Part shown: positions 3,076 to 64,000 of the stretch, one piece after another | Position numbering within the stretch: position 1 is the stretch's first letter | Layout: the number at the start of each line of letters is the position of its first letter | Source of the DNA: Diprion similis | Taxonomy: Eukaryota > Arthropoda > Insecta > Hymenoptera > Diprionidae | DNA length: 64,000 nucleotides | NCBI RefSeq assembly: GCF_021155765.1 | Contig: NC_060107.1 | Span: forward strand, 3,483,501 to 3,547,500 | Direction of reading: 5' to 3' | The notes under the pieces: generated by a model | Told to the model about the DNA's origin: nothing | The model's input: the letters and a program-made list of their open reading frames with translations, nothing else | Databases searched by the model: none | Position numbers and translations under genes: made by a program

Positions 3076-3100
3076 TTTTTTTTTTTTTTTTTTTTTTTTT
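3076..3100. repeat. Poly(T) tract, 25 nt
   Basis: Uninterrupted T run followed by a short ATTT-rich tail. It could be the reverse complement of a retroposon or mRNA tail, but no element body is recognisable beside it. Confidence 0.9.
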
Positions 3101-3482
3101 ATTTATTTTTATTTCAGTATACAAAATCAGTTTTCTATTTTAAGATGTATCTGTAGTCTGTACTAAGGTTTATTTCTACCACGTTTACTGTTTTTGTTGG
3201 TTTTTTTTTTTCTCTTTTTCTTTTTCATGCTAGATTTTACCTCGAGTTTGTTAATTGAATTCTTACATATATATATATATATAGTATATTAAATAATCAC
3301 CCAATCATAGTCGGATAATTGCTAATCATTACTATCAACTTGTCGAAAGGTCAGACACCAGATTAGTCAGATAATGGATGAAATAAGAAGAGGGAGAAAT
3401 AAAATGAATAATAATGGAAGAAAATAAGAATGAGGAAAAATGAAACTGAAAAGAAATCAATAATTATTAATAATGAGAGGGA

Positions 3483-3494
3483 GGGGGGGGGGGG
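3483..3494. repeat. G12 homopolymer
   Basis: A run of twelve G inside a GAGGGAGGG context, very unusual in this AT-rich region. It may form a G-quadruplex-type structure and is prone to sequencing length errors. Confidence 0.9.
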
Positions 3495-4067
3495 CACATT
3501 TATGAATAAAAACAATAAGATTATTGACGATGGATAAACCCAGTTCAAATTTAGTATTATATGTGAAACACAACGTAAACATGTGCATCCTAGCTGTAAC
3601 TAGTGACTATATAAGGGTATTTATTTATATAATAGTAAAATTGATATCGATATGTTATGGCAAATGATACCTACATACATATATATTTGTGTAATGATAT
3701 ATATATATGTATGATGATAATATTAACACACTTGGATGTTTAGGATAGGACCATATGTATTTAGGGTGTTGTGTGTTCGGTGGTGTATGTTCATTCCAAC
3801 TGCTCCATTCATTATTCACTTTACGCGCACACTGCTGCCGATCTGATATTATAAACTGGCAAAACATTCTTTCGATTTCCTCGAAAGACGTAATTTGTTG
3901 GTAATTCGCTCGTCGTACGGTTTCCTAGGTTTACTTAAACGCCGCGGTAGGGTTCGAAGTTCTTATCTATTTTCTCTCTGACTATCTTTCTCTCTCTCTG
4001 TCTCCCTCTCTCTCACTCTCTTTTGGTAAACAAGAATGAGATAGAAACTAGGAACGTTGAGAAAAAG

Positions 4068-42321: not shown

Positions 42322-45300
42322 TTACGTAGTAGTTCTTTTCTGCGGCTTTTGCCCCTTTACAACGGTGGGTCGACCCTTGATCAGTCCCTTCTTGCGACGC
42401 GCTGTCTGTAACATCAATTTCCAGCCCCCCATAATTTCAACTACGCTTCTGGATCATCTGGTGTATTTGTTACAGAGAACCAAACGATACGACGGACATG
42501 TCAAAAAATGTCTCTGAAATCGTTTCTAAGAAACATAATGCTCACCTTTTTGCTGAGAAATGAACTCGTTCTTCGATTAATCGTGCGCTCTGCTATTGGG
42601 ATTCTGGGTCGATTAAACTCCTCTGGTTTCTTCACTCTGTGGAAAAAAACATAAAAAAATATACCAACTCAAATGAATATAGCAGAGGGAGTTTCAACAT
42701 ACGTAGCTGAAAATATGGAATAATCACCTGTAAATCCTAACAAGCCAATGCTCAGTGGTATATGCTTCGTCCAAATATGTGAGTTGAAAGTTTTTGTTGC
42801 CTATTTCCGCGTTACGAGTACGATCAAAGCCTGCGGGAGAGCGATAGTCGATCTTGACTTCTCCAAATCGATAATAACTCAGTTTGTACATAAGGGAATT
42901 GAGCAGAGTAGGAGAGCCCTCCGAATCAACTCTAAATTCTCCGCGCTCTGTAAAGTAGTCGCTTTCCCTAATATCTTGCGGATGTTCACCCTCGGCTATA
43001 CGAACCATCCATAAAAATTTATTTATGTCGTCGCCAGAGTAACCGATCATCCCACCAAATATAACCAGCACATAATCTACATCCAACGTTGTCATTATAT
43101 CGTAAGCAGCACTCTCATTCGAACTCATAGCCTTGCCCACTAAAGCTATGTGCGAGTTGTTCCATGTATTATTGTCCACAAGTGTTGTCCTGTTGGTGAA
43201 TATTATTGAATTTAACAATTACTGATCTTTCACAGCAACAAAGTTTAAATGGAGTAAAATATCATAGACCTGAACAGCGAATAGAAAAATTAATATCTTC
43301 ACCTATTGGCCATGCCCGCTATTTGATAGCCGTAATCCCACCAGCTCATTACTCTTGCGTCGTTTGGTGTATTTTGGGCAAGCCAGTAGTATGCCTCTCG
43401 GAAATCATCGAGTATTGATCGACCACCGTCATTGCTGTAGGATGCCAGAACTATAGAAGGACTAGAATATGCGTTACTCGTCACCCAGGTACAATGAACA
43501 GTGAACATCATTAGTAGCATCGAAATTCCAATGACGACACCGTTACGGAGATTTGCTCCGAGTCCGTCGCCTGAACCTTTTGGTCTCTCGTGTTTCATGC
43601 GCCGCAGTTTTCCCGCTTTATCATATAAGGCACGTCCAGGGCTTCGCTCTGTTTCTTCCTCGCTCTCCTCCTCGCTTCCCTCTCCACCTTCTCGATCACT
43701 TCCCTCTTTATCCTCCTCTTTTAAAAACAATTCCAGTAAACCGCTAAAAGCTACTCCAGCCAACATACATACGACCGGCGTCAGAGTAAGCATCAACCGT
43801 ACCATAACACCGGCAAAGTACACAGCGCTTATAGCATATAAAACCACTGTAACAAATTCAAGGGAATTCGTATTAGATTTAAAATATTCTGCACTCCCAG
43901 ATCATAGAGTTTAATTTTTGATAAACGATATTCAAGAGTGAAGACTCGAACCAACTTACCAAAAACGCGTTCGTCATTAATATGCTTGATACAGTACCAC
44001 AACCCAACGGGAAAGGTGGTAACCAAAATATGCAGGTCAAAGAAGAAGCTGAACCATGTGGTAGGTTGATGTTCAGAGACAGAGGCAATTATGGGAATAT
44101 GAATTTTAGCGTATCCTGTGTCCCATAGGGAGTAAAATCGTCCACTCCAAGGAGCAACGAGTCCCGAGTAAGTGAGAACAATTAGAATGAGCAGAAGGGC
44201 TGCTGCTGTAAGAGTTACAAAACCACCAAAGTACTTCATCTCAGACTTGGTCAGCATTGTTCGAAGATACCTGGAAGCGCAGCATATGATTAGCATGAGG
44301 TTTTTTGCAGTGTAAAATTATCGAGTTTTGTCTTTAATTTCTGTGACAAAACTGATTCAATTTGAAGTTCCTTGTTGATTGTATTACCTGAAAACTGCGA
44401 CAAAGATCAGTAGACCAAACACACCTCCAGCAGCCATGTGTTCGGAAGTTCTTATCGGTTGAAAGCCAACAAATGGTATTTGCATACTGAGCAGTAGACC
44501 AAGAATGTAGAATGTTGTATAGCTTGTGAAAAGCCGATTGCTGTACCGATTCATGACCAACAGTGCAAATACGTGAAGTGGGATTAAGTTTATGATAAAA
44601 ACATATCCTCCCCAGGCAGACACCATGTAAAAGTAGGATAGGGCAGTAAGAACAGCCCAAAATATCGAGCCAGTCTTAACCGACTTTACCCAAAGGTAGT
44701 AAGTGAATTGCAAGGCAAATATGGCAATGCCCTCATTGTCGTAACTGCCGGCTACGGACCTGGATATATATCCAGGAACGATAGCTATAAAGCAAGCGGC
44801 AAATAAACCGGCTCCAGCACTCCATAATTCTTTGGTCAAGAAGTAGGTTGATATGGCGGTTAGGCCGCTGAAAACTGGTGCCAAAAACACGCAAATGTCT
44901 CTTATGTGCACAGGAATGTTGAGGGAGTGGAGAATGTAGTGTATTGACCCAGATGTTATCATAAGACCTGGGTAGACCGTCCCACCAACGATACGACCCA
45001 GCGGGTACCATGCTCTTTCGTCAAACCAGTTCAGAAAATTATAAAATCCATGTTGTACCATGTATGCCGTTGCTCGATAATTGAACCTTTAACAAGAAAG
45101 ATAAATTTTATTAAAATACTGAATCCTGTGTGAAAAAAATATTTTTCAATCTACATGGTTATTTTTCTCATATTATCTTCATCAGATAACTCAAAATGAT
45201 TAGGGGGTTCACATAAACAATACCAGCTTTCAGAGTCAATGTTGTAAGAGCAAGAGATTTGAAGTGGTGAAAGGATCTGATAAGGTCAGCGATAAAAAGT

Positions 45301-45738
45301 TTCTTCTCACTTAATTGGTAAAGAAGGCAAGAACAATTGCTGAGTGAGGAGGTGTTGAAATGGAGAGTAATTTAATTACTTGAAATCAGTCTATAATAAC
45401 TGATATGGATATATATAACCTGATATAGAGTTGGTTATCGGGAGGCGACTGTTTCCATAGAATTTAGTGAAATGAGAGAGGTAGAAAGTGGAAATTATGT
45501 GATGAAGTTGTACGTACCATGGGTCAAACTCATGGATAATGCTCTCGAAACGAATAACAGCGAATAATCGGGAAGCGAATCCCGATATCCAAGCGAGGAG
45601 CAAAACGGTAAAGGTGATCAACGAACTTAGACCGAATTTAGTTAGCGTTGAACTCTTCACCTGTCGTGAATTAGTCGGCTGTTTGTCGGGGAACAGGACT
45701 TTCTTCGCGTACGGTGCGTTCGCCTTCGAAGGCAGCAT
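42322..45738 (-). CDS. Stt3B: Oligosaccharyltransferase catalytic subunit STT3B
   Basis: Seven exons: 45738-45518, 45086-44388, 44270-43960, 43846-43303, 43189-42728, 42636-42546 and 42405-42322. All phases match; total 2,412 nt, 803 residues. The enzyme sits in the ER membrane and transfers the dolichol-linked glycan to Asn in N-X-S/T sequons. Seen motifs: EFDPW with D72 (first acidic motif, split by intron 1), SYDNE with D190 and E192 (second), SVSE with E373 (external loop), WWDYG at 579-583, which reads the sequon, followed directly by a DNNTWNN block. Multiple membrane helices begin at about residue 36. It is STT3B and not STT3A because of IAGMANR, the block [18 protein letters not shown], and the acidic Ser/Glu-rich insert in exon 4. 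The basic Lys/Arg tail of exons 6-7 is also typical. ATG at 45738 is the first; a few bases upstream the frame is not conserved. No defects are seen. Confidence 0.97.
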
Positions 45739-46553
45739 TTTTTAACAACCTCGGTCACTCTCTTATCCTTAAAAATTTTACCTGAATACAAGACTTATCA
45801 CCAACACCGCCATACGCGCACAAAACACCGGTCCCCGCACGACACGCAAGCAAAGCAGACCACACGACGAAAGTAACGACACCACGAACGACACGTCAAC
45901 TATCCGCATGATGGCCAACGCTAAAAAACATCCCTAGATCAAGGCCTGCGAAATGTAAACAGAAGCTGAAAGGAAACTAGGCTAGTCCCGCTTTTACTTT
46001 GAAATCATAAAAAAAATTTCATAACATAAACTTCCGCATGCATAATACACATTCGTTTATCAAACTTGATACTTTTTATTTATTTATATATGTGAACGTA
46101 GAACAGATGTTAATTATTTATAGATCATTTTTTACCTAATCTTATTTTAATCATGGGTATACATTATATCAAGTAGAGTGTATAACATTGCATAACTTAC
46201 AATTAGCCTTGGGAGATAGGTTTGAGGTATGGGTTTTGAAATATTTTTTTTCATTATTAAATATAATAACATTTTTTATTATACAGAGTCAGATTATTTA
46301 TGTTAAATACAAAAATACAATTTATATACTAGTCTAGGACAGAATTTTTATATTGCCTCTTGCTATTCAATTAGAAAACTCTGATATTATGCTTGTTGTT
46401 GAATAGAATTATCAATTACACATACTTAGCTCAACGTATGTTACATAATTTGATACTATGCACTGCGAATGATATATGTAATACCATTTGCATCAAGGTA
46501 TGTACAAAATTTGCTCAACTTCGTGAGAGATTCAGAAACGTTTTAAAAGTACA
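45739..46553. other. Spacer between Idi and Stt3B
   Basis: About 815 bp between the Idi stop and the Stt3B start, both on the minus strand. It must contain the Idi 3' end (AATAAA on the minus strand at 46075-46080 or 46275-46280) and the Stt3B promoter. The part next to Stt3B (45,780-45,960) is locally GC-richer. Confidence 0.5.
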
Positions 46554-47400
46554 TCATTCAAAACGCTGTATGTGAGTATGATCCTGCAGTTTTTCAAGAG
46601 CCTGAAGATTGTCCCACCAAAGGGGTAGTCTATGTGTAAGGATAAGTTGAAACCACGGAGTGAGAGGGCAGTCCACGAGTTTCAAGAAATCTGGCATCTG
46701 TCGCCTGGAGACCCAACGAACTTCACTGACCTCATCAGCATTAGGATCAAGAGTTATGTTCGCCTTTTGAAGAAATAATATGTAGTCTATCTCATGCTCG
46801 CCCCAGTGACCGTCCCCAATATCGTGATAATGAATCCTGGTGAGGTACGTGAAGTCGTTCGGCTGAACCTGATTAGCGGGAATTCCCAATTCGTAAGAAA
46901 GCCGGCGTTGAGCAGCTTTTCGAATACCTAGTACATTTCGTTCCTCCATTTCTTCAGGTATCTCCGCCAGAGGATGACTGCAGCATGTGTTCGTATAATG
47001 AGCTGGGAAAGTGACCTGAAAAAAATTGATAGTGCAAATAAAAAGTAGACTGTTTAAATTATTGAATGAGAGGTTGGTAAAAATTTGATCAATCGTGAGT
47101 TTACTAAGAGCTGAAACTCACCTTGTTTGCCGATCGTTTTTGGAGTAACAAGTCCCCTTTTTGATTGAAAAGAAATATGCTGAACGCTCTGTGAAGAGGG
47201 ATACTACCGTCTTGACCGACGCGATGGCAATCTCTCTTGGAAGCTTCTCCAAGAGGACGATCTTGGCTATCGACTAGAATGCATCGTTCTTCGAGTGCAG
47301 CTTCTTGCAGAGTAGCTGTCTGCATTTTGGCATAACGTCGCAAGGTTCCAAAGAGTGTTTCCCTCGCTATACGACGAACTTCTCTACTTGTGGCAAGCAT
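46554..47400 (-). CDS. Idi: Isopentenyl-diphosphate Delta-isomerase, type I
   Basis: Two exons, 47400-47122 (93 codons) and 47015-46554, phase 0, with donor GTGAGT and acceptor TTTTTTCAG; 246 residues. It converts isopentenyl diphosphate to dimethylallyl diphosphate in the mevalonate pathway, feeding farnesyl diphosphate, dolichol and, in insects, juvenile hormone. Seen: CILVDSQD at the start of the domain, a metal-binding CHR (about residue 60), LHRAFSIFLFN, the catalytic-Cys block TNTCCSHP (101-108), the Nudix-like helix GIRKAAQRRLSYELGI (123-138), and WGEHEIDY (164-171) with the catalytic glutamate. The C-terminal WWDN motif is present. The N-terminal 27 residues are basic and amphipathic (MLATSREVRRIARETL), which suggests a mitochondrial presequence; no peroxisomal SKL-type tail is seen. 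The ATG at 47400 is the first in frame. Confidence 0.96.
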
Positions 47401-48223
47401 TACGTGTAAAATTTATAACACGATATTCTCTCGATATGTTCGTTTAAAGGATAGTAAAATTTCGTCACAGGTTATAGAAACGCACAGGGTTCGTTTCTTC
47501 CTATACTTTCAACGTTGTTTTGCGGTTTGCAGCGATAGATCGCGACTCGATAGCCTTTATACAATAATTCTACTTTCATGAATTCTTATCTACTTATTCA
47601 TATTTCTAAATGACGTCTTCAGTACACAATAAGAATGAATACGAATTGTTATGCATTGCGACACATTTGACAGTTTGACACGCATGCATCCATGTAGAAG
47701 GATGAAGTATATTACTAATAAGGGTACACGTATTGTACACACATTCATACAGTAACGTATTGTTAGATGGATTCTGACACGTTCGATATCCCTAGAAATC
47801 TTTCGACCCACAAGGCTCATCCAACCTAAGCGTCCAACACCGTTGGTCGTAAAATTTCTGGGGTTATCGGACGTATCAGAATCCTCAGAATCTATCTAAA
47901 AATGTATGTAGGTATATCGCTCTTCAGTCAACGGCTAACGTCGGCTACTTAGGCTACGTTCCGAAATAAACTTCCAGTATTGTCAACCATCTTTTATCTC
48001 TTTTGCGCTGTCAGGGTTGTGGGTAGCTTTGCCTCTGTCCTAGGGAGTTTGTAGCGTTGGCAGTTTGTTTCGGAACACACTTTTGGGCTACCACGGTGTT
48101 GCTATAGATAGGAGAGTTGATAAGGATAACGGACTGTGGCGGGATTTGTGCGTAGTGGCATGTTGTACGAACAATTGACTATCAACAAACGGTTCAAAGC
48201 ACCCGAATCGTGAGTATTTAGCA
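47401..48223. other. Idi 5' flank up to the satellite
   Basis: About 820 bp holding the Idi promoter. No conserved frame is seen. It ends at the first, degenerate satellite copy. Confidence 0.5.
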
Positions 48224-48399
48224 CCAATTCTGTCAGGCACTATTCCAACGTAATTTTGCGAGAGGAATCAATTGAGCGCAGTCCCAATACGCTGCGAGCA
48301 ATGGATCAAGAGATCAAAATAATTTTCGGCTCAAAAATTCACCAACAAGTGAGGCTAACCCCTCTGGATTTTGAACCAAAATTTCGACGAATTTGAAAA
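48224..48399. repeat. Degenerate, internally deleted left-edge satellite copy
   Basis: This copy follows the consensus but is more diverged than the inner ones, and 134 nt of the unit (between ATCAAGAG and AATTTTCGG) are replaced by 8 nt (48313-48320). A decayed edge copy is what unequal exchange theory predicts, since edges are rarely homogenised. Confidence 0.85.
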
Positions 48400-50547
48400 G
48401 TGCTGCAATTCATTCTGTGAGGCAATATTCCGACGTAATTTTGCGAGAGGAATCGATTAAGCGCAGTCCCAATACGCTGCGAGCAATGGATCAAGAGTTA
48501 CAGGCGAAAACCTGCTTATTTTCGTCCTCATTTCTCTGCTGTTGGTCCTACGCTCTTTGTCATGTGATTTTTGAGTTCGTGGGGGTCGATTTACTCCGGA
48601 AAGGGTCATACGAATCGATTCCGAGACGACAAATTTTCGGCTCAAAAATTCACCAAAAATTAAGGCTAACCCCTTTGGATTTTTGGCAAAATTTCGACGA
48701 CTTTGAAAAGTGCTGCAATTATTTCTGTGTGGCACTATTCCGACGTAATTTTGCGAGAGGAATCGATTAAGCGCAGTCCCAATACGCTGCGAGCAATGGA
48801 TCAAGAGTGACAGGCGAAAAACTGCTTATTTTCGTCCTCATTTCTCTGCTGTTGGTCCTACGCTCTTTTTCATGTGATTTTTGAGTTCCTGGGGGTCGAT
48901 TTACTCCGGAAAGGGTCATACGAATCGATTCCGAGACGACAAATTTTCGGCTCAAAAATTCACCAAAAAGTAAGGCTAACCCCTTTGGATTTTTGGCCAA
49001 AATTTTGACGACTTTGAAAAGTGCTGCAATTAATTCTGTGAGGCGCTATTCCGACGTAATTTTGCGAGAGGAATCGATTAAGCGCAGTCCCAATACGCTG
49101 CGAGCAATGGATCAAGAGTTACAGGCGAAAAACTGCTTATTTTCGTCCTAATTTCTCTGCTGTTGGTCCTACGCTCTTTTTCATGTGATTTTTGAGTTCC
49201 TGGGGGTCGATTTACTCCGGAAAGGGTCATACGAATCGATTCCGAGACGACAAATTTTCGGCTCAAAAATTCACCAAAAAGTAAGGCTAACCCCTTTGGA
49301 TTTTTGGCCAAAATTTTGACGACTTTGAAAAGTGCTGCAATTAATTCTGTGAGGCGCTATTCCGACGTAATTTTGCGAGAGGAATCGATTAAGCGCAGTC
49401 CCAATACGCTGCGAGCAATGGATCAAGAGTTACAGGCGAAAAACTGCTTATTTTCGTCCTAATTTCTCTGCTGTTGGTCCTACGCTCTTTTTCATGTGAT
49501 TTTTGAGTTCCTGGGGGTCGATTTACTCCGGAAAGGGTCATACGAATCGATTCCGAGACGACAAATTTTCGGCTCAAAAATTCACCAAAAAGTAAGGCTA
49601 ACCCCTTTGGATTTTTGGCCAAAATTTCGACGACTTTGAAAAGTGCTGCAATTAATTCTGTGAGGCGCTATTCCGACGTAATTTTGCGAGAGGAATCGAT
49701 TAAGCGCAGTCCCAATACGCTGCGAGCAATGGATCAAGAGTTACAGGCGAAAAACTGCTTATTTTCGTCCTCATTTCTCTGCTGTTGGTTCTACGCTCTT
49801 TTTCATGTGATTTTTGAGTTCCTGGGGGTCGATTTACTCCGGAAAGGGTCATACGAATCGATTCCGAGACGACAAATTTTCGGCTCAAAAATTCACCAAA
49901 AAGTAAGGCTAACCCCTTTGGATTTTTGGCCAAAATTTCGACGACTTTGAAAAGTGCTGCAATTAATTCTGTGAGGCACTATTCCGACGTAATTTTGCGA
50001 GAGGAATCGATTAAGCGTAGTCCCAATACGCTGCGAGCAATGGATCAAGAGTTACAGGCGAAAAACTGCTTATTTTCGTCCTAATTTCTCTGCTGTTGGT
50101 CCTACGCTCTTTTTCATGTGATTTTTGAGTTCCTGGGGGTCGATTTACTCCGGAAAGGGTCATACGAATCGATTCCGAGACGACAAATTTTCGGCTCAAA
50201 AATTCACCAAAAAGTAAGGCTAACCCCTTTGGATTTTTGGCCAAAATTTCGACGACTTTGAAAAGTGCTGCAATCAATTCTGTGAGGCACTATTCCGAAG
50301 TAATTTTGCGAGAGGAATCGATTAAGCGCAGTCCCAATACGCTGCGAGCAATGGATCAAGAGTTACAGGCGAAAAACTGCTTATTTTCGTCCTAATTTCT
50401 CTGCTGTTGGTCCTACGCCCTTTTTCATGTGATTTTTGAGTTCCTGGGGGTCGATTTACTCCGGAAAGGGTCATACGAATCGATTCCGAGACGACAAATT
50501 TTCGGCTCAAAAATTCACCAAAAAGTAAGGCTAACCCCTTTGGATTT

Positions 50548-53500
50548 TTGGCCAAAATTTCGACGACTTTGAAAAGTGCTGCAATTAATTCTGTGAGGCA
50601 CTATTCCGACGTAATTTTGCGAGAGGAATCGATTAAGCGCAGTCCCAATACGCTGCGAGCAATGGATCAAGAGTTACAGGCGAAAAACTGCTTATTTTCG
50701 TCCTCATTTCTCTGCTGTTGGTCCTACGCTCTTTTTCATGTGATTTTTGAGTTCCTGGGGGTCGATTCACTCCGGGAAGGGTCATACGAATCGATTCCGA
50801 GACGACAAATTTTCGGCTCAAAAATTCACCATAAAGTAAGGCTAACCCCTTTGGATTTTTGGCCAAAATTTCGACGACTTTGAAAAGTGCTGCAATTAAT
50901 TCTGTGAGGCGCTATTCCGACGTAATTTTGCGAGAGGAATCGATTAAGCGCAGTCCCAATACGCTGCGAGCAATGGATCAAGAGTTACAGGCAAAAAACT
51001 GCTTATTTTCGTCCTCATTTCTCTGCTGTTGGTTCTACGCTCTTTTTCATGTGATTTTTGAGTTCCTGGGGGTCGATTTACTCCGGAAAGGGTCATACGA
51101 ATCGATTCCGAGACGACAAATTTTTGGCTCAAAAATTCACCAAAAAGTAAGGCTAACCCCTTTGGATTTTTGGCCAAAATTTCGACGACTTTGAAAAGTG
51201 CTGCAATAAATTCTGTGAGGCACTATTCCGACGTAATTTTGCGAGAGGAATCGATTAAGCGCAGTCCCAATACGCTGCGAGCAATGGATCAAGAGTTACA
51301 GGCAAAAAACTGCTTATTTTCGTCCTCATTTCTCTGCTGTTGGTCCTACGCTCTTTTTAATGTGATTTTTGAGTTCCTGGGGGTCGATTTACTTCGGAAA
51401 GGGTCATACGAATCGATTCCGAGACAACAAATTTCCGGCTCAAAAATTCACCAAAAAGTAAGGCTAACCCCTTTGGATTTTTGGCCAAAATTTCGACGAC
51501 TTTGAAAAGTGCTGCAATCAATTCTGTGAGGCACTATTCCGACGTCATTTTGCGAGAGGAATCGATTAAGCGTAGTCCCAATACGCTGCGAGCAATGGAT
51601 CAAGAGTTACAGGCGAAAAACTGCTTATTTTCGTCCTAATTTCTCTGCTGTTGTTCCTACGCTCTTTTTCATGTGATTTTTGAGTTCCTGGGGGTCGATT
51701 TACTCCGGAAAGGGTCATACGAATCGATTCCGAGACGACAAATTTCCGGCTCAAAAATTCACCAAAAAGTGAGGCTAACCCCTTTGGATTTTTGGCCAAA
51801 ATTTCGACGACTTTGAAAAGTGCTGCAATTAATTCTGTGAGGCACTATTCCGACGTAATTTTGCGAGAGAAATCGATTAAGCGCAGTCCCAATACGCTGC
51901 GAGCAATGGATCAAGAGTTACAGGCGAAAAACTGCTTATTTTCGTCCTAATTTCTCTGCTGTTGGTCCTACGCTCTTTTTCATGTGATTTTTGAGTTCCT
52001 GGGGGTCGATTCCCTCCGGAAAGGGTCATACGAATCGATTCCGAGACGACAAATTTTCGGCTCAAAAATTCACCATAAAGTAAGGCTAACCCCTTTGGAT
52101 TTTTGGCCAAAATTTCGACGACTTTGAAAAGTGCTGCAATTAATTCTGTGAGGCGCTATTCCGACGTAATTTTGCGAGAGGAATCGATTAAGCGCAGTCC
52201 CAATACGCTGCGAGCAATGGATCAAGAGTTACAGGCAAAAAACTGCTTATTTTCGTCCTCATTTCTCTGCTGTTGGTTCTACGCTCTTTTTCATGTGATT
52301 TTTGAGTTCCTGGGGGTCGATTTACTCCGGAAAGGGTCATACGAATCGATTCCGAGACGACAAATTTTTGGCTCAAAAATTCACCAAAAAGTAAGGCTAA
52401 CCCCTTTGGATTTTTGGCCAAAATTTCGACGACTTTGAAAAGTGCTGCAATAAATTCTGTGAGGCACTATTCCGACGTAATTTTGCGAGAGGAATCGATT
52501 AAGCGCAGTCCCAATACGCTGCGAGCGATGGATCAAGAGTTACAGGCGAGAAACTGCTTATTTTCGTCCTCATTTCTCTGCTGTTGGTCCTACGCTCTTT
52601 TTCATGTGATTTTTGAGTTCCTGGGGGTCGATTTACTTCGGAAAGGGTCATACGAATCGATTCCGAGACGACAAATTTCCGGCTCAAAAATTAACCAAAA
52701 AGTAAGGCTAACCCCTTTGGATTTTTGGCCAAAATTTCGACGACTTTGAAAAGTGCTGCAATCAATTCTGTGAGGCACTATTCCGACGTCATTTTGCGAG
52801 AGGAATCGATTAAGCGTAGTCCCAATACGCTGCGAGCAATGGATCAAGAGTTACAGGCGAAAAACTGCTTATTTTCGTCCTAATTTCTCTGCTGTTGGTC
52901 CTACGCCCTTTTTCATGTGATTTTTGAGTTCCTGGGGGTCGATTTACTCCGGAAAGGGTCATACGAATCGATTCCGAGACGACAAATTTTCGGCTCAAAA
53001 ATTCACCAAAAAGTAAGGCTAACCCCTTTGGATTTTTGGCCAAAATTTCGACGACTTTGAAAAGTGCTGCAATTAATTCTGTGAGGCACTATTCCGACGT
53101 AATTTTGCGAGAGGAATCGATTAAGCGTAGTCCCAATACGCTGCGAGCAATGGATCAAGAGTTACAGGCGAAAAACTGCTTATTTTCGTCCTAATTTCTC
53201 TGCTGTTGGTCCTACGCTCTTTTTCATGTGATTTTTGAGTTCCTGGGGGTCGATTTACTCCGGAAAGGGTCATACGAATCGATTCCGAGACGACAAATTT
53301 TCGGCTCAAAAATTCACCAAAAAGTAAGGCTAACCCCTTTGGATTTTTGGCCAAAATTTCGACGACTTTGAAAAGTGCTGCAATTAATTCTGTGAGGCAC
53401 TATTCCGACGTAATTTTGCGAGAGGAATCGATTAAGCGCAGTCCCAATACGCTGCGAGCAATGGATCAAGAGTTACAGGCGAAAAACTGCTTATTTTCGT

Positions 53501-53968
53501 CCTAATTTCTCTGCTGTTGGTCCTACGCTCTTTTTCATGTGATTTTTGAGTTCCTGGGGGTCGATTTACTCCGGAAAGGGTCATACGAATCGATTCCGAG
53601 ACGACAAATTTTCGGCTCAAAAATTCACCAAAAAGTAAGGCTAACCCCTTTGGATTTTTGGCCAAAATTTCGACGACTTTGAAAAGTGCTGCAATTAATT
53701 CTGTGAGGCGCTATTCCGACGTAATTTTGCGAGAGGAATCGATTAAGCGCAGTCCCAATACGCTGCGAGCAATGGATCAAGAGTTACAGGCGAAAAACTG
53801 CTTATTTTCGTCCTAATTTCTCTGCTGTTGGTCCTACGCTCTTTTTCATGTGATTTTTGAGTTCCTGGGGGTCGATTTACTCCGGAAAGGGTCATATGAA
53901 TCGATTCCGAGACGACAAATTTTCGGCTCAAAAATTCACCAAAAAGTAAGGCTAACCCCTTTGGATTT
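50548..53968. repeat. Higher-order block A: 11 satellite units (3,421 bp)
   Basis: Array units 8-18. The combination of unit variants (TCACTCCGGGAAGG, CATAAAGT, a TTTTTGGCTC variant, TTTTTAATGTG, GACGTCATT, GTTGTTCC, GATTCCCTCCGG, GCGATGG with GCGAGAAAC, ATTAACC, GCCCTTTTTC, CATATGAATC) recurs in the same order 3,421 bp later. Borders are placed to within one unit. Within the block, units 8-11 resemble 12-15, a nested four-unit period. Confidence 0.85.
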
Positions 53969-56900
53969 TTGGCCAAAATTTCGACGACTTTGAAAAGTGC
54001 TGCAATTAATTCTGTGAGGCACTATTCCGACGTAATTTTGCGAGAGGAATCGATTAAGCGCAGTCCCAATACGCTGCGAGCAATGGATCAAGAGTTACAG
54101 GCGAAAAACTGCTTATTTTCGTCCTCATTTCTCTGCTGTTGGTCCTACGCTCTTTTTCATGTGATTTTTGAGTTCCTGGGGGTCGATTCACTCCGGGAAG
54201 GGTCATACGAATCGATTCCGAGACGACAAATTTTCGGCTCAAAAATTCACCATAAAGTAAGGCTAACCCCTTTGGATTTTTGGCCAAAATTTCGACGACT
54301 TTGAAAAGTGCTGCAATTAATTCTGTGAGGCGCTATTCCGACGTAATTTTGCGAGAGGAATCGATTAAGCGCAGTCCCAATACGCTGCGAGCAATGGATC
54401 AAGAGTTACAGGCAAAAAACTGCTTATTTTCGTCCTCATTTCTCTGCTGTTGGTTCTACGCTCTTTTTCATGTGATTTTTGAGTTCCTGGGGGTCGATTT
54501 ACTCCGGAAAGGGTCATACGAATCGATTCCGAGACGACAAATTTTCGGCTCAAAAATTCACCAAAAAGTAAGGCTAACCCCTTTGGATTTTTGGCCAAAA
54601 TTTCGACGACTTTGAAAAGTGCTGCAATAAATTCTGTGAGGCACTATTCCGACGTAATTTTGCGAGAGGAATCGATTAAGCGCAGTCCCAATACGCTGCG
54701 AGCAATGGATCAAGAGTTACAGGCAAAAAACTGCTTATTTTCGTCCTCATTTCTCTGCTGTTGGTCCTACGCTCTTTTTAATGTGATTTTTGAGTTCCTG
54801 GGGGTCGATTTACTTCGGAAAGGGTCATACGAATCGATTCCGAGACAACAAATTTCCGGCTCAAAAATTCACCAAAAAGTAAGGCTAACCCCTTTGGATT
54901 TTTGGCCAAAATTTCGACGACTTTGAAAAGTGCTGCAATCAATTCTGTGAGGCACTATTCCGACGTCATTTTGCGAGAGGAATCGATTAAGCGTAGTCCC
55001 AATACGCTGCGAGCAATGGATCAAGAGTTACAGGCGAAAAACTGCTTATTTTCGTCCTAATTTCTCTGCTGTTGTTCCTACGCTCTTTTTCATGTGATTT
55101 TTGAGTTCCTGGGGGTCGATTTACTCCGGAAAGGGTCATACGAATCGATTCCGAGACGACAAATTTCCGGCTCAAAAATTCACCAAAAAGTGAGGCTAAC
55201 CCCTTTGGATTTTTGGCCAAAATTTCGACGACTTTGAAAAGTGCTGCAATTAATTCTGTGAGGCACTATTCCGACGTAATTTTGCGAGAGAAATCGATTA
55301 AGCGCAGTCCCAATACGCTGCGAGCAATGGATCAAGAGTTACAGGCGAAAAACTGCTTATTTTCGTCCTAATTTCTCTGCTGTTGGTCCTACGCTCTTTT
55401 TCATGTGATTTTTGAGTTCCTGGGGGTCGATTCCCTCCGGAAAGGGTCATACGAATCGATTCCGAGACGACAAATTTTCGGCTCAAAAATTCACCATAAA
55501 GTAAGGCTAACCCCTTTGGATTTTTGGCCAAAATTTCGACGACTTTGAAAAGTGCTGCAATTAATTCTGTGAGGCGCTATTCCGACGTAATTTTGCGAGA
55601 GGAATCGATTAAGCGCAGTCCCAATACGCTGCGAGCAATGGATCAAGAGTTACAGGCAAAAAACTGCTTATTTTCGTCCTCATTTCTCTGCTGTTGGTTC
55701 TACGCTCTTTTTCATGTGATTTTTGAGTTCCTGGGGGTCGATTTACTCCGGAAAGGGTCATACGAATCGATTCCGAGACGACAAATTTTTGGCTCAAAAA
55801 TTCACCAAAAAGTAAGGCTAACCCCTTTGGATTTTTGGCCAAAATTTCGACGACTTTGAAAAGTGCTGCAATAAATTCTGTGAGGCACTATTCCGACGTA
55901 ATTTTGCGAGAGGAATCGATTAAGCGCAGTCCCAATACGCTGCGAGCGATGGATCAAGAGTTACAGGCGAGAAACTGCTTATTTTCGTCCTCATTTCTCT
56001 GCTGTTGGTCCTACGCTCTTTTTCATGTGATTTTTGAGTTCCTGGGGGTCGATTTACTTCGGAAAGGGTCATACGAATCGATTCCGAGACGACAAATTTC
56101 CGGCTCAAAAATTAACCAAAAAGTAAGGCTAACCCCTTTGGATTTTTGGCCAAAATTTCGACGACTTTGAAAAGTGCTGCAATCAATTCTGTGAGGCACT
56201 ATTCCGACGTCATTTTGCGAGAGGAATCGATTAAGCGTAGTCCCAATACGCTGCGAGCAATGGATCAAGAGTTACAGGCGAAAAACTGCTTATTTTCGTC
56301 CTAATTTCTCTGCTGTTGGTCCTACGCCCTTTTTCATGTGATTTTTGAGTTCCTGGGGGTCGATTTACTCCGGAAAGGGTCATACGAATCGATTCCGAGA
56401 CGACAAATTTTCGGCTCAAAAATTCACCAAAAAGTAAGGCTAACCCCTTTGGATTTTTGGCCAAAATTTCGACGACTTTGAAAAGTGCTGCAATTAATTC
56501 TGTGAGGCACTATTCCGACGTAATTTTGCGAGAGGAATCGATTAAGCGTAGTCCCAATACGCTGCGAGCAATGGATCAAGAGTTACAGGCGAAAAACTGC
56601 TTATTTTCGTCCTAATTTCTCTGCTGTTGGTCCTACGCTCTTTTTCATGTGATTTTTGAGTTCCTGGGGGTCGATTTACTCCGGAAAGGGTCATACGAAT
56701 CGATTCCGAGACGACAAATTTTCGGCTCAAAAATTCACCAAAAAGTAAGGCTAACCCCTTTGGATTTTTGGCCAAAATTTCGACGACTTTGAAAAGTGCT
56801 GCAATTAATTCTGTGAGGCACTATTCCGACGTAATTTTGCGAGAGGAATCGATTAAGCGCAGTCCCAATACGCTGCGAGCAATGGATCAAGAGTTACAGG

Positions 56901-57078
56901 CGAAAAACTGCTTATTTTCGTCCTAATTTCTCTGCTGTTGGTCCTACGCTCTTTTTCATGTGATTTTTGAGTTCCTGGGGGTCGATTTACTCCGGAAAGG
57001 GTCATATGAATCGATTCCGAGACGACAAATTTTCGGCTCAAAAATTCACCAAAAAGTAAGGCTAACCCCTTTGGATTT
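53969..57078. repeat. Higher-order block B: copy of block A lacking one unit
   Basis: Array units 19-28. Units 19-27 match block A units 8-16 in order at an offset of exactly 3,421 bp; unit 28 (CATATGAATC variant) matches unit 18, so the equivalent of unit 17 is missing. Differences are few, e.g. TTTTTGGCTC in unit 9 against TTTTCGGCTC in unit 20. Confidence 0.85.
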
Positions 57079-57389
57079 TTGGCCAAAATTTCGACGACTT
57101 TGAAAAGTGCTGCAATTAATTCTGTGAGGCACTATTCCGACGTAATTTTGCGAGAGGAATCGATTAAGCGCAGTCCCAATACGCTGCGAGCAATGGATCA
57201 AGAGTTACAGGCGAAAAACTGCTTATTTTCGTCCTAATTTCTCTGCTGTTGGTCCTACGCTCTTTTTCATGTGATTTTTGAGTTCCTGGGGGTCGATTTA
57301 CTCTGGAAAGGGTCATACGAATCGATTCCGAGACGACAAATTTCCGGCTCAAAAATTCACTAAAAAGTAAGGCTAACCCCTTTGGATTT

Positions 57390-59255
57390 TTGGCCAAAAT
57401 TTCGACGACTTTGAAAAGTGCTGCAATTAATTCTGTGAGGCACTATTCCGACGTAATTTTGCGAGAGGAATCGATTAAGCGCAGTCCCAATACGCTGCGA
57501 GCAATGGATCAAGAGTTACAGGCGAAAAACTGCTTATTTTCGTCCTCATTTCTCTGCTGTTGGTCCTACGCTCTTTTTCATGTGATTTTTGAGTTCCTGG
57601 GGGTCGATTTACTCCGGAAAGGGTCATACGAATCGATTCCGAGACGACAAATTTCCGGCTCAAAAATTCACCAAAAAGTAAGGCTAACCCCTTTGGATTT
57701 TTGGCCAAAATTTCGACGACTTTGAAAAGTGCTGCAATTAATTCTGTGAGGCACTATTCCGACGTAATTTTGCGAGAGGAATCGATTAAGCGCAGTCCCA
57801 ATACGCTGCGAGCAATGGATCAAGAGTTACAGGCGAAAAACTGCTTATTTTCGTCCTAATTTCTCTGCTGTTGGTCCTACGCTCTTTTTCATGTGATTTT
57901 TGAGTTCCTGGGGGTCGATTTACTCCGGAAAGGGTCATACGAATCGATTCCGAGACGACAAATTTTCGGCTCAAAAATTCACCATAAAGTAAGGCTAACC
58001 CCTTTGGATTTTTGGCCAAAATTTCGACGACTTTGAAAAGTGCTGCAATTAATTCTGTGAGGCGCTATTCCGACGTAATTTTGCGAGAGGAATCGATTAA
58101 GCGCAGTCCCAATACGCTGCGAGCAATGGATCAAGAGTTACAGGCAAAAAACTGCTTATTTTCGTCCTAATTTCTCTGCTGTTGGTCCTACGCTTTTTTT
58201 CATGTGATTTTTGAGTTCCTGGGGGTCGATTTACTCCGGAAAGGGTCATACGAATCGATTCCGAGACGACAAATTTCCGGCTCAAAAATTCACCAAAAAG
58301 TAAGGCTAACCCCTTTGGATTTTTGGCCAAAATTTCGACGACTTGGAAAAGTGCTGCAATTAATTCTGTGAGGCACTATTCCGACGTAATTTTGCGAGAG
58401 GAATCGATTAAGCGCAGTCCCAATACGCTGCGAGCAATGGATCAAGAGTTACAGGCGAAAAACTGCTTATTTTCGTCCTCATTTCTCTGCTGTTGGTCCT
58501 ACGCTCTTTTTCATGTGATTTTTGAGTTCCTGGGGGTCGATTTACTCCGGAAAGGGTCATACGAATCGATTCCGAGACGACAAATTTCCGGCTCAAAAAT
58601 TCACCAAAAAGTAAGGCTAACCCCTTTGGATTTTTGGCCAAAATTTCGACGACTTTGAAAAGTGCTGCAATTAATTCTGTGAGGCACTATTCCGACGTAA
58701 TTTTGCGAGAGGAATCGATTAAGCGCAGTCCCAATACGCTGCGAGCAATGGATCAAGAGTTACAGGCGAAAAACTGCTTATTTTCGTCCTAATTTCTCTG
58801 CTGTTGGTCCTACGCTCTTTTTCATGTGATTTTTGAGTTCCTGGGGGTCGATTTACTCCGGAAAGGGTCATACGAATCGATTCCGAGACGACAAATTTTC
58901 GGCTCAAAAATTCACCATAAAGTAAGGCTAACCCCTTTGGATTTTTGGCCAAAATTTCGACGACTTTGAAAAGTGCTGCAATTAATTCTGTGAGGCGCTA
59001 TTCCGACGTAATTTTGCGAGAGGAATCGATTAAGCGCAGTCCCAATACGCTGCGAGCAATGGATCAAGAGTTACAGGCAAAAAACTGCTTATTTTCGTCC
59101 TAATTTCTCTGCTGTTGGTCCTACGCTTTTTTTCATGTGATTTTTGAGTTCCTGGGGGTCGATTTACTCCGGAAAGGGTCATACGAATCGATTCCGAGAC
59201 GACAAATTTCCGGCTCAAAAATTCACCAAAAAGTAAGGCTAACCCCTTTGGATTT
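57390..59255. repeat. Trimer duplication within the satellite (2 x 933 bp)
   Basis: Array units 30-32 and 33-35 repeat with a 933-bp (three-unit) period. Shared rare variants include CATAAAGT, CGCTTTTTTTC and the T-to-G change in GACTTGGAAAAG (58,341 and 59,273). The exact block border is uncertain by part of a unit; the last shared variant lies just beyond 59,255. Confidence 0.8.
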
Positions 59256-61768
59256 TTGGCCAAAATTTCGACGACTTGGAAAAGTGCTGCAATTAATTCT
59301 GTGAGGCACTATTCCGACGTAATTTTGCGAGAGGAATCGATTAAGCGCAGTCCCAATACGCTGCGAGCAATGGATCAAGAGTTACAGGCGAAAAACTGCT
59401 TATTTTCGTCCTAATTTCTCTGCTGTTGGTCCTACGCTCTTTTTCATGTGATTTTTGAGTTCCTGGGGGTCGATTTACTCCGGAAAGGGTCATACGAATC
59501 GATTCCGAGACGACAAATTTTCGGCTCAAAAATTCACCAAAAAGTAAGGCTAACCCCTTTGGATTTTTGGCCAAAATTTCGACGACTTTGAAAAGTGCTG
59601 CAATTAATTCTGTGAGGCACTATTCCGACGTAATTTTGCGAGAGGAATCGATTAAGCGCAGTCCCAATACGCTGCGAGCAATGGATCAAGAGTTACAGGC
59701 GAATAACTGCTTATTTTCGTCCTCATTTCTCTGCTGTTGGTCCTACGCTCTTTTTCATGTGATTTTTGAGTTCCTGGGGGTCGATTTACTCCGGAAAGGG
59801 TCATACGAATCGATTCCGAGACGACAAATTTCCGGCTCAAAAATTCACCAAAAAGTAAGGCTAACCCCTTTGGATTTTTGGCCAAAATTTCGACGACTTT
59901 GAAAAGTGCTGCAATTAATTCTGTGAGGCACTATTCCGACGTAATTTTGCGAGAGGAATCGATTAAGCGCAGTCCCAATACGCTGCGAGCAATGGATCAA
60001 GAGTTACAGGCGAAAAACTGCTTATTTTCGTCCTAATTTCTCTGCTGTTGGTCCTACGCTCTTTTTCATGTGATTTTTGAGTTCCTGGGGGTCGATTTAC
60101 TCTGGAAAGGGTCATACGAATCGATTCCGAGACGACAAATTTCCGGCTCAAAAATTCACCAAAAAGTAAGGCTAACCCCTTTGGATTTTTGGCCAAAATT
60201 TCGACGACTTTGAAAAGTGCTGCAATTAATTCTGTGAGGCACTATTCCGACGTAATTTTGCGAGAGGAATCGATTAAGCGCAGTCCCAATACGCTGCGAG
60301 CAATGGATCAAGAGTTACAGGCGAAAAACTGCTTATTTTCGTCCTTTTTTCTCTGCTGTTGGTCCTACGCTCTTTTTCATGTGATTTTTGAGTTCCTGGG
60401 GGTCGATTTACTCCGGAAAGGGTCATACGAATCGATTCCGAGACGACAAATTTCCGGCTCAAAAATTCACCAAAAAGTAAGGCTAACCCCTTTGGATTTT
60501 TGGCCAAAATTTCGACGACTTTGAAAAGTGCTGCAATTAATTCTGTGAGGCACTATTCCGACGTAATTTTGCGAGAGGAATCGATTAAGCGCAGTCCCAA
60601 TACGCTGCGAGCAATGGATCAAGAGTTACAGGCGAAAAACTGCTTATTTTCGTCCTAATTTCTCTGCTGTTGGTCCTACGCTCTTTTTCATGTGATTTTT
60701 GAGTTCCTGGGGGTCGATTTACTCCGGAAAGGGTCATACGAATCGATTCCGAGACGACAAATTTTCGGCTCAAAAATTCACCAAAAAGTAAGGCTAACCC
60801 CTTTGGATTTTTGGCCAAAATTTCGACGACTTTGAAAAGTGCTGCAATAAATTCTGTGAGGCACTATTCCGACGTAATTTTGCGAGAGGAATCGATTAAG
60901 CGCAGTCCCAATACGCTGCGAGCAATGGATCAAGAGTTACAGGCGAAAAACTGCTTATTTTTGTCCTCATTTCTCTGCTGTTGGTCCTACGCTCTTTTTC
61001 ATGTGATTTTTGAGTTCCTGGGGGTCGATTTACTCCGGAAAGGGTCATACGAATCGATTCCGAGACGACAAATTTCCGGCTCAAAAATTCACCAAAAAGT
61101 AAGGCTAACCCCTTTGGATTTTTGGCCAAAATTTCGACGACTTTGAAAAGTGCTGCAATTAATTCTGTGAGGCACTATTCCGACGTAATTTTGCGAGAGG
61201 AATCGATTAAGCGCAGTCCCAATACGCTGCGAGCAATGGATCAAGAGTTACAGGCGAAAAACTGCTTATTTTCGTCCTAATTTCTCTGCTGTTGGTCCTA
61301 CGCTCTTTTTCATGTGATTTTTGAGTTCCTGGGGGTCGATTTACTCCGGAAAGGGTCATACGAATCGATTCCGAGACGACAAATTTCCGGCTCAAAAATT
61401 CACCAAAAAGTAAGGCTAACCCCTTTGGATTTTTGGCCAAAATTTCGACGACTTTGAAAAGTGCTGCAATTAATTCTGTGAGGCACTATTCCGACGTCAT
61501 TTTGCGAGAGGAATCGATTAAGCGTAGTCCCAATACGCTGCGAGCAATGGATCAAGAGTTACAGGCGATAAACTGCTTATTTTCGTCCTCATTTCTCTGC
61601 TGTTGGTCCTACGCTCTTTTTCATGTGATTTTCGAGTACCTGGGGGTCGATTTACTCCGGAAAGGGTCATACGAATCGATTCCGAGACGACAAATTTTCG
61701 GCTCAAAAATTCACCAAAAAGTAAGGCTAACCCCTTTGGATTTTTGGCCAAAATTTCGACGACTTTGA
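59256..61768. repeat. Dimer alternation at the right end of the satellite
   Basis: Units 37, 39, 41 and 43 carry C (or T in unit 39) and the intervening units carry A at the CCT[C/A]ATTTCTC site, giving a 622-bp period. Units 37, 39 and 41 are otherwise close to each other. The last unit ends abruptly at 61770 after GACTTTGAAA. Confidence 0.75.
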
Positions 61769-61770
61769 AA

Positions 61771-64000
61771 TGGGGCGGAATATCGACATGCTAAACGTAT
61801 GATTCTTCTAGTATAATTTGTCGTTTCCAACAAGAAAAAAAATGGGCAAGGTTATTGCAAATATTTTGTTTTATGATTCGAATTCGTTGTTTGCGGTGGG
61901 ACACTTGCGGTATATTGTATCAGTCGGCTGACACGGCGAATGTGTTCGAATCAAAATTCGCCGCTTAAATTTTCATCGTCAGTTGTTACATGGAAGCTGA
62001 ATGTATAAATTAATATTATGTCCTCAGTCAACGAGTCAACGATGAGTGGCATCGTTCATCCTTAAATTTTAATCATTTAAATTGTTCAATTGCATCTTGC
62101 GTTGGATTTAGTGCGTCTCAACTTTTGCACAAAAACTTTTATGCAAAACTTAATCATATCCTACCAACAAAATTCCAGCCTATAGCGTGGAAAGAGCACG
62201 TATCAGAAAACTACCATTTCTACCTAACCTCCTATTATTGTTCAGTTTGAGTATTATCTTGAGAATAGCAGACTACCATACATTCTGCAGAACCTGATAA
62301 GAATGATTACCGACCGAGTTTTTGCTGATAAGCCTCAAAAACAAAACCCAAAGTGACTTACTACACCCCCCTCTTGACCTTATCCTATGCAATAGGTAGC
62401 ACATTCACCAGCATTCTTCGTCTCGCATTTTACTAGGTTTTGAGCTCGTTTATTGGCCGGAAAATGGTTCTCGTTGATTAAATCATTGGTCATTACATTA
62501 CATTCTGAAGGAATTACCTTTCTTGCGAAAAATTACAGTTGTGACAAAACAAAAACGAGAACTACGAAATCGCGCCAATTTTTGAAAACTGACTCCTATA
62601 ATGAGACAAATGACTTATGGATATTATTTAATTGTTTTCACAGTAATATCTAAGAAAACTTAGGCAGGTATAGAATGACCGGTTATTTATAGGACATTTT
62701 TTTCCGTTGAACAGAAAAGAAAAAGGTAATAACAAATTCCACTTTATCTATTTACTTAATTGCTTAGTGACTTTTTATTGATTCAAAATCAAGATTACAT
62801 AATTTATTTATAATAATATATCAATGTAATATACATACCAAGTTATGAGTACTATTTTTTTTCTGTTTTTGTTATTTTTTCGTTACGGTATAACATAGGA
62901 CCAACTATTTGTTGGTATAGATAATGAATCATTTCTTCAACAGTATTATGATTAAAACATATACATATGTATAGCGAAAACGAAGCTTCATGCCTTACAA
63001 GTAATGTTTACAATAATATAAATAGCTGGCACATATACAAGGCATCCCAACATCACGTTCCAACGTTTTCGTATGTTCTCTTTTGTTCATGTATTATTCA
63101 CTTTATCTTCTATATATTCTCATTTTTATTTTACTTCTTCTTTCATATTTTTAATTTCTCTGTATTCAATATAAATCCGTCGTTTCGCAATAAAATGAAC
63201 GAAATTCTTTCCTTCTTCATCTTCTTTGTATTTTTTTTTTCAAAGTTTGTTTTTCCTTTTATCTTTTAATAAACAGCACCATCGATAGTTGACAGAAGTA
63301 GAAAAGTTTGACGCATCTTACAGAATTCTGTCCTTCTGTTTATAGATTCAAACAACCTAAGGGGGGCTTGAGTTACGATAAAGTAATAATTTTAGGATCT
63401 TTGGAATTGTGTGTAGTTCTTACATAATTTCGTTTAGAAAAACAAATGAACTGTCTTCAATTTGTTGTTGACATTCCTCTCGAAATACTAGATGAAAATA
63501 GTGATAATGTAGGAACACCACACCACCATGACACCTGACAAATAATAGTTATAGGAAAAGTACGTCTCTGAAGTACTGTAAAGCTGGGTGTGATATACAT
63601 TTATAAATAACTTTGTAGCAATTTTATAGCAAAAAAAAATTATTCCCCAGATCACAATATCCTTAAAAAGCATGATGTCCTTTAGTTTGCTGGAGTCGTA
63701 TAGTTCGTTTTCTTTCAATCTTTTTTTTTTGTTTCATCAACAACTTGCTCTGTACATATTTTCAATCTGATTTTTCCCTTAGGAGGGGCAAATCAGTGTT
63801 TAAACTGCTCTAAATTAAACATATATCTACAAATGCGAACGAATTTAATTACACTAAATTATATCCTAACTTGAAAATATAGTTTTCACTACTGAGCAGA
63901 AAGTTTTATCCTCTGAGACCATCTTATGTTGGACAATATTACGTTTCTGTATAATATAGTGTAATATAGGATTTATATCAACAGGAAATAAGTAGAAATA
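61771..64000. other. AT-rich DNA right of the satellite, no gene seen
   Basis: About 2.2 kb. Open frames at 62,453, 62,967 and 63,488 are short, low in complexity or match nothing I know. No RNA gene or mobile-element end is recognised. The right edge of the satellite shows no target-site duplication or terminal repeat. Confidence 0.6.

Follow-up and report, generated by a model that had tools for sequence, protein, structure and literature searches.

A Satellite Array Beside Idi in Diprion similis and Its Genome-Wide Family, a Probable Base-Exact Landing Site for Two LINE Families

Introduction

How does a 13.5-kb tandem satellite come to lie about 0.8 kb from a gene, and of what is it a part? 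The question is raised by a stretch of 64,000 nucleotides from the sawfly Diprion similis (contig NC_060107.1, here C3:3483501-3547500; hereafter the window), in which a head-to-tail array of 43 full units of ~311 bp and two partial units begins upstream of Idi, the gene for isopentenyl-diphosphate isomerase. An earlier reading of the letters alone (the sequence-only reading) had proposed that the array either expanded recently on the spot or is one euchromatic representative of a major satellite family. The analysis presented below indicates, with a probability of roughly 0.82, that the array is a member of a satellite family making up ~4.7% of the genome assembly, and that this family is a base-exact landing field for two families of long interspersed nuclear elements (LINEs).

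A Dispersed Satellite Family

The assembly comprises 269 Mb in 60 contigs. The 14 large contigs (C1 to C14) total 264.5 Mb, and C1 starts in a TTAGG repeat (among the matches listed); on these two grounds they are probably the 14 chromosomes. Chromosome ends of TTAGG, a count of 14 and a genome of this size would suit a diprionid sawfly such as Diprion. A core 34-mer of the unit, searched with up to three mismatches, has 40,976 sites in the genome (21,145 forward and 19,831 reverse), and another 45-mer of the unit has 2,095 sites at the same tolerance, while the control of each search returned none. At ~311 bp per core site, the family occupies ~12.7 Mb (4.7%) of the 269-Mb assembly, an estimate which omits more diverged units. 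Tandem sites are present on C1, C2, C3, C4, C6, C9, C10 and C12 among the matches listed, and satellite adjoins retrotransposons on every contig from C1 to C14. The search of the whole assembly, which the sequence-only reading had suggested, thus places the unit family on all 14 large contigs, and the repeat shows both marks of satellite DNA, a long head-to-tail array and abundance in the genome. The satellite family foreseen by that reading is real; it can be called major by abundance only, and euchromatic by its gene neighbours only. Our literature searches found no paper on an insect satellite DNA of 311 bp, and nothing on point about sawfly satellites.

Abundant satellites are often those of centromeres, so the repeat could be centromeric or pericentromeric, with the window lying near a centromere instead of in ordinary arm DNA. 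The distribution of the family makes this unlikely. The satellite occurs at several places per contig (on C1 at 0.97, 1.18, 9.92, 10.35 and 12.83 Mb, among the matches listed), and its arrays, where ends or long stretches were seen, are ~10 to >30 kb long and lie in both orientations, the window array standing between genes. The arrays on C9, spread over 0.8-5.2 Mb, are separate and interspersed with other DNA: spot samples were free of satellite in 10/10 cases inside this span and in 10/10 outside it, and these 20 samples ruled out one giant array on that contig.

Two Retrotransposon Families at One Satellite Base

The satellite is joined at one and the same position of its unit by at least two retrotransposon families, named here A and B. 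A is a ~4.5-kb insert in an array on C4 (L023 7342 to L024 1834, that is C4:21797342-21801834), and B is the left neighbour of an array on C9. The stretch of the unit AAGGCTAACCCCTTTG is the insertion site of both. Queries with the 3' ends gave 33 places for each family, of which 27 (A) and 30 (B) reach the 3' end, the B set taking in relatives down to 75% identity. Forty-nine of the resulting 57 junctions were read in sequence and eight come from exact pattern hits. At 47/57 (A 24/27, B 23/30) the element ends at the same satellite base, and in both families the tail is followed there by CTAACCCCTTTG or a close variant and then by satellite. Most copies therefore end at one base of a repeated target, which is the mark of a target-specific element. 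Random insertion would be expected to hit the landing base in ~1 of 6,600 cases, given a satellite share of 4.7% and one such base per ~311 bp.

The 5' junctions, seven of which were read, point to the same place. The profile finds satellite upstream in six of them, and five of the six stop at GGCTAAC(C), profile position 400-401 (A on C4 and C5, B on C12); the sixth, on C2, belongs to a relative with 72% identity and stops at GTTAAC. The seventh, belonging to the A copy L101 (C12:10707533-10707713), lies in non-satellite DNA, yet the copy begins after AAGGCTAACC, as if its RNA had carried a few target bases or a site with a chance match had been chosen. The C4 (A) and C12 (B) insertions are each bracketed by CTAACC, which is what a short target-site duplication would leave. 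The insertion point of both families is CTAA^CCCC, where the (AAATCT)n or (AAACT)n tail adjoins the target CTAA; the mechanism is presumably target-primed reverse transcription.

The ORF2 (second open reading frame) is open over 1,035 aa in A and over 1,000 aa in B. In B, a single frame holds Exo_endo_phos (1.1e-10) and RVT_1 (4.2e-39) matches in Pfam, and the ORF2 proteins of the two families are 44% identical over 1,000 aa. Judged by these predicted proteins, A and B are non-LTR (lacking long terminal repeats) retrotransposons, B by the domains scanned and A by the identity of its ORF2 to that of B; open frames and near-identical copies make both families young-looking. Near-identical copies of the C4 element A were seen on C5.

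The 353-aa ORF1 frame of A contains PHD finger (1.4e-6) and Baculo_FP domains, and no CCHC family matched it up to E = 0.01. CCHC zinc knuckles in ORF1 are typical of the R1 clade (R1, TRAS, SART). For the endonuclease of B, L1 was a weak match (E = 0.015), and no chain bearing the name R1 or TRAS turned up to E = 10. L1 and R2 supplied the LINE chains that the PDB search named, and an NCBIfam scan of the B ORF2 returned no match. From these domain matches, ORF1 of A and the endonuclease of B do not look like R1/TRAS. A PHD-type ORF1 is a trait of the CR1 group (CR1/L2-like), to which A might belong.

The window array contains 44 landing sites AAGGCTAACCCCTTTGG in its 43 full units and right partial unit (48351..61739, plus strand). 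They match the 17-mer exactly in 41 cases, with at most one mismatch in 43 and with at most two in 44, and 0/44 are occupied by an insertion.

Independence of the Insertions and Constancy of the Target

A common landing base could also arise with no homing, if a single retrotransposon insertion had been carried along as the satellite was copied. The flanks of the insertions bear on this, and 110 bp of downstream satellite were compared for 16 A and 17 B insertions (the 34 satellite junctions minus one with a changed target base; L104, L106 and L107 are not included). Distinct flanks were found in 15/16 A and 13/17 B insertions, the mean identity being 0.90 and 0.925, respectively, so that even close relatives differ in the satellite beside them. 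For all three insertions inside sampled arrays, the array type that matches the flank most closely is the local one (L081 with C12, 1.00; L086 with C4, 0.97; L065 with C9, 0.99). Moreover, the same base is used by two families whose ORF2 proteins are only 44% identical. What speaks for passive copying is a set of identical 110-bp flanks: the pairs C5:1.806/1.812 Mb, C9:2.449/2.468 Mb and C1:7.796/7.804 Mb, which are clearly local duplications together with the array, and the B flanks on C5, C13 and C14. Taken together, these data make a single insertion carried along very unlikely as the explanation.

The identical flanks nevertheless weigh against repeated, base-exact insertion into the satellite, as do several other observations. 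Ten of the 57 3' ends lie outside satellite (A: L069, L072, L075; B: L085, L095, L096, L105, L108, L109, L110), and the targeting is for this reason strong, but not absolute. Three of these ten (L108-L110) have one common flank, and 8/57 junctions are known only for the first bases past the tail, up to CCCCTTTG. Furthermore, across 15 array consensuses, 83/312 columns vary and six invariant runs of at least 15 bp are present; AAGGCTAACCCCTTTG is one of the six and not the longest. Even the longest run (22) does not reach significance (p = 0.08), and constraint on the landing stretch is for that reason only suggested.

L108, L109 and L110 are 75% identical to B and carry an identical non-satellite flank on C10, C7 and C1; they are probably part of another duplicated repeat.

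A closer partnership between satellite and elements can be imagined, and we regard it as doubtful. An apurinic/apyrimidinic (AP) endonuclease LINE lineage outside R1 and Tx1 would have specialised on the satellite, a harmless target would help to keep the landing stretch constant, and the elements would in turn spread the satellite, e.g., by read-through transcripts carrying downstream satellite.

Structure and Origin of the Window Array

The window array spans 48226..61769 on the plus strand, as found by Tandem Repeats Finder (TRF), unit cutting and a satellite profile, and amounts to ~44 unit-lengths in 13.5 kb, counted with the deleted bases of its left partial unit restored. TRF gives a period of 311, 43.3 copies and 98% matches over 48321-61770, and identity is 0.96 at lag 311 and falls to ~0.35 at lags other than multiples of 311. 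Cutting on a conserved motif yields 43 full units at 48319..61691 (41 of 311 bp, one of 310 bp, and the first, 312 bp as cut), which represent 28 distinct sequences with a mean pairwise identity of 98.0% (minimum 93.6%). The left partial unit (48226..48318) starts at unit position 92 of the consensus and has a 130-bp internal deletion; the right partial unit (61692..61769) stops at unit position 79, ~12 bp before the left-end phase. The near-identical 311-bp tandem array of 43 full units described by the sequence-only reading is borne out by these results, its start at 48224 being off by two bases. The profile (E up to 0.01) has no match in the window outside 48226-61778.

The units are not arranged at random. 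The run of units 8-16 (50496..53294) reappears at a lag of 11 units (3,421 bp) as units 19-27 (53917..56715), with 8/9 units identical, and shorter unit repeats occur at lags 3 and 4, including a two-unit run at lag 3. Such repeated runs point to repeated unequal exchange and may be read as its local trace. An internal dimer origin of the 311-bp unit was considered and rejected, as the best internal lag (149) reaches an identity of only 0.35, which is too weak (p = 0.007 versus 1,000 single-base shuffles). No known RNA family was found at window positions 45000-64000.

Consensus sequences of 21 array samples, from about a dozen arrays, fall into array- and contig-specific types. Seven C9 samples across 4.4 Mb are 99-100% alike and have a 304-bp unit, which suggests strong exchange or copying within that chromosome; two oppositely oriented C12 arrays are 96-98% alike, and C4 shares 96% with C6. 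Of the relatives sampled, the one nearest to the window unit is on C12 (94.6% identity), and an array ~0.18 Mb away on C3 reaches 92-94%, so that all other sampled arrays stand at least 5.4% apart from that of the window. A diagnostic 28-mer has 40 exact matches and three with one mismatch in the window array, while elsewhere in the genome there are no exact matches and 17 places with one mismatch (C8, C9, C12). Because the exact 28-mer is confined to this array, the array represents a private variant of the genome-wide family that was amplified locally. This result upholds the local expansion proposed earlier; "recent" is unsupported, since 98% identity is ordinary for the family (93.9-99.3% within the 20 other samples) and the distance to all other sampled arrays is 5.4% or more.

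The privacy of the variant raises the alternative that single-copy DNA at this locus gave rise to the array, which then seeded the family. This would also suit the flanks of the window array, where the profile (E up to 0.01) detected no decayed satellite, a finding in line with a younger arrival. However, ~40,976 core sites exist in the genome, several other arrays are fringed by older, decayed satellite, and other arrays differ by 5-10% from the window array, which for this reason is not a recent source of the whole family; we consider an origin of the family at this locus highly improbable. In the reading preferred here, a founder of one or more satellite units would have reached the site beside Idi, and unequal crossing-over would then have enlarged and homogenised the array. 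The simplest route of arrival would be circle integration, both ends of the array lying within ~12 bp of the same unit position. Against this route, the argument rests on one near-coincidence of phase with a chance of ~8%, the ends of other arrays fall at different phases, and several of those arrays are bordered by older, decayed satellite.

An older segment of ~430-460 bp, called here segment X, lies just upstream of satellite at unit position ~235-256 in six places (L023 1398-1859 and parts of L019, L020, L021, L028 and L029). Its copies are 57-65% identical, no coding match was seen in them, and the segment looks like the remains of an older, perhaps longer unit. The shared array-end position ~235-256 was at first taken for transposon ends with inverted repeats, an idea dropped in favour of segment X. 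Segment X was not found beside the window array. The C6 array is flanked on both sides by a separate ~190-bp repeat (L020 ~2957-3617, with a matching stretch at L019 7222-7414).

Long tandem arrays are difficult to assemble, and the array could have been misplaced or misjoined here. It is, however, bordered by non-satellite sequence on both sides within a 19-Mb contig, and its private variants and ordered internal variation speak against an artefact, which we hold to be the least probable of the explanations considered.

Gene Neighbourhood

The coding pieces of Idi lie at 46557..47412 on the minus strand. The frame starts at ~47412, and the array begins ~0.8 kb upstream of this start; the 3' piece matches NUDIX, and the short 5' piece has no Pfam match. 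The next gene of the block is that of the STT3 oligosaccharyl transferase (42724..45741, minus strand; matched by the piece 44387-45088). Pfam families were recognised in 7/8 scanned window frames (Arf, ZNF598, ribosomal L9, PP1 inhibitor, zf-C3Hc3H, STT3 and NUDIX), and we read the zf-C3Hc3H frame as KANSL2-like. These matches agree with the earlier placement of the array 0.8 kb from Idi, at the edge of a gene block. To the right of the array, the next gene is, as read by eye, a UBE2O-like frame which lies ~3.5 kb beyond the array end and finishes ~1.3 kb beyond the window end. The gap between Idi and UBE2O is roughly 18 kb, of which ~13.5 kb is satellite. By its gene neighbours, the window array is thus an array among genes, like euchromatic satellites of the Tribolium type. 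Window positions 1-22000 are AT-rich, at 25-31% GC, with a high density of short simple repeats; among the frames listed there, for which no family search was made, none was recognised by eye as a gene.

A private array 0.8 kb upstream of Idi is a clean place for testing a local effect of satellite on gene expression. Taken alone, the window array belongs to a known kind and is ordinary, though conveniently placed for study; the interest lies in the use of the satellite, across the genome and to the exact base, as a landing site by two LINE families.

Comparison with Known Systems

The X-linked 1.688 satellite of Drosophila forms local euchromatic arrays with a unit of some 300-360 bp. The arrays described here are similar in arrangement, and their family is present on all 14 large contigs. 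Dispersed, euchromatic satellites are well described, including those of Tribolium castaneum, which, in the accessible part of the source, likewise form a family near genes in chromosome arms (PMC10048060). Compared in arrangement with the Tribolium satellites, the arrays of D. similis reach ~10 to >30 kb and contain a LINE landing site.

Among non-LTR elements, TRAS/SART in telomere repeats and R1/R2 in ribosomal DNA (rDNA) insert at one base of a repeated target. A and B share this one-base insertion, the target here being a 311-bp satellite of chromosome arms, and the landing motif CTAACC resembles the TTAGG/CCTAA telomere repeat at which TRAS/SART insert. In contrast to R1/TRAS, A carries PHD finger and Baculo_FP domains in its ORF1 and has no CCHC match there. 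The known targets of target-specific LINEs, as given in the accessible part of PMC4640811, are mainly rRNA, tRNA, snRNA and spliced leader genes, microsatellites, transposons and telomere repeats. According to the same part of that source, target-specific LINEs are mostly early-branched or of the Tx1 and R1 lineages, and those with an AP endonuclease come mainly from two clades. It also describes YURE of Ciona, a non-LTR element occasionally found in a U2-derived satellite and grouped with Utopia and NeSL, whose endonuclease is of the restriction type (PMC4640811). From what is accessible there, the target of YURE is derived from the U2 gene and its specificity is weak, whereas the endonuclease of B is AP-type by Pfam.

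The literature searched, including accessible parts of PMC4640811 and PMC3124438 and few subscription papers, contained no LINE that keeps to a single base in a satellite of this sort. This is weak evidence for the novelty of satellite-targeting LINEs, because most subscription papers lie outside the search. With one-base targeting of a dispersed satellite, the range of targets known for LINEs would gain a new kind, and the question why some parts of such a unit remain constant could be approached. By analogy with rDNA for R1/R2 and telomere repeats for TRAS/SART, the satellite of D. similis probably serves A and B as a genome-wide landing field.

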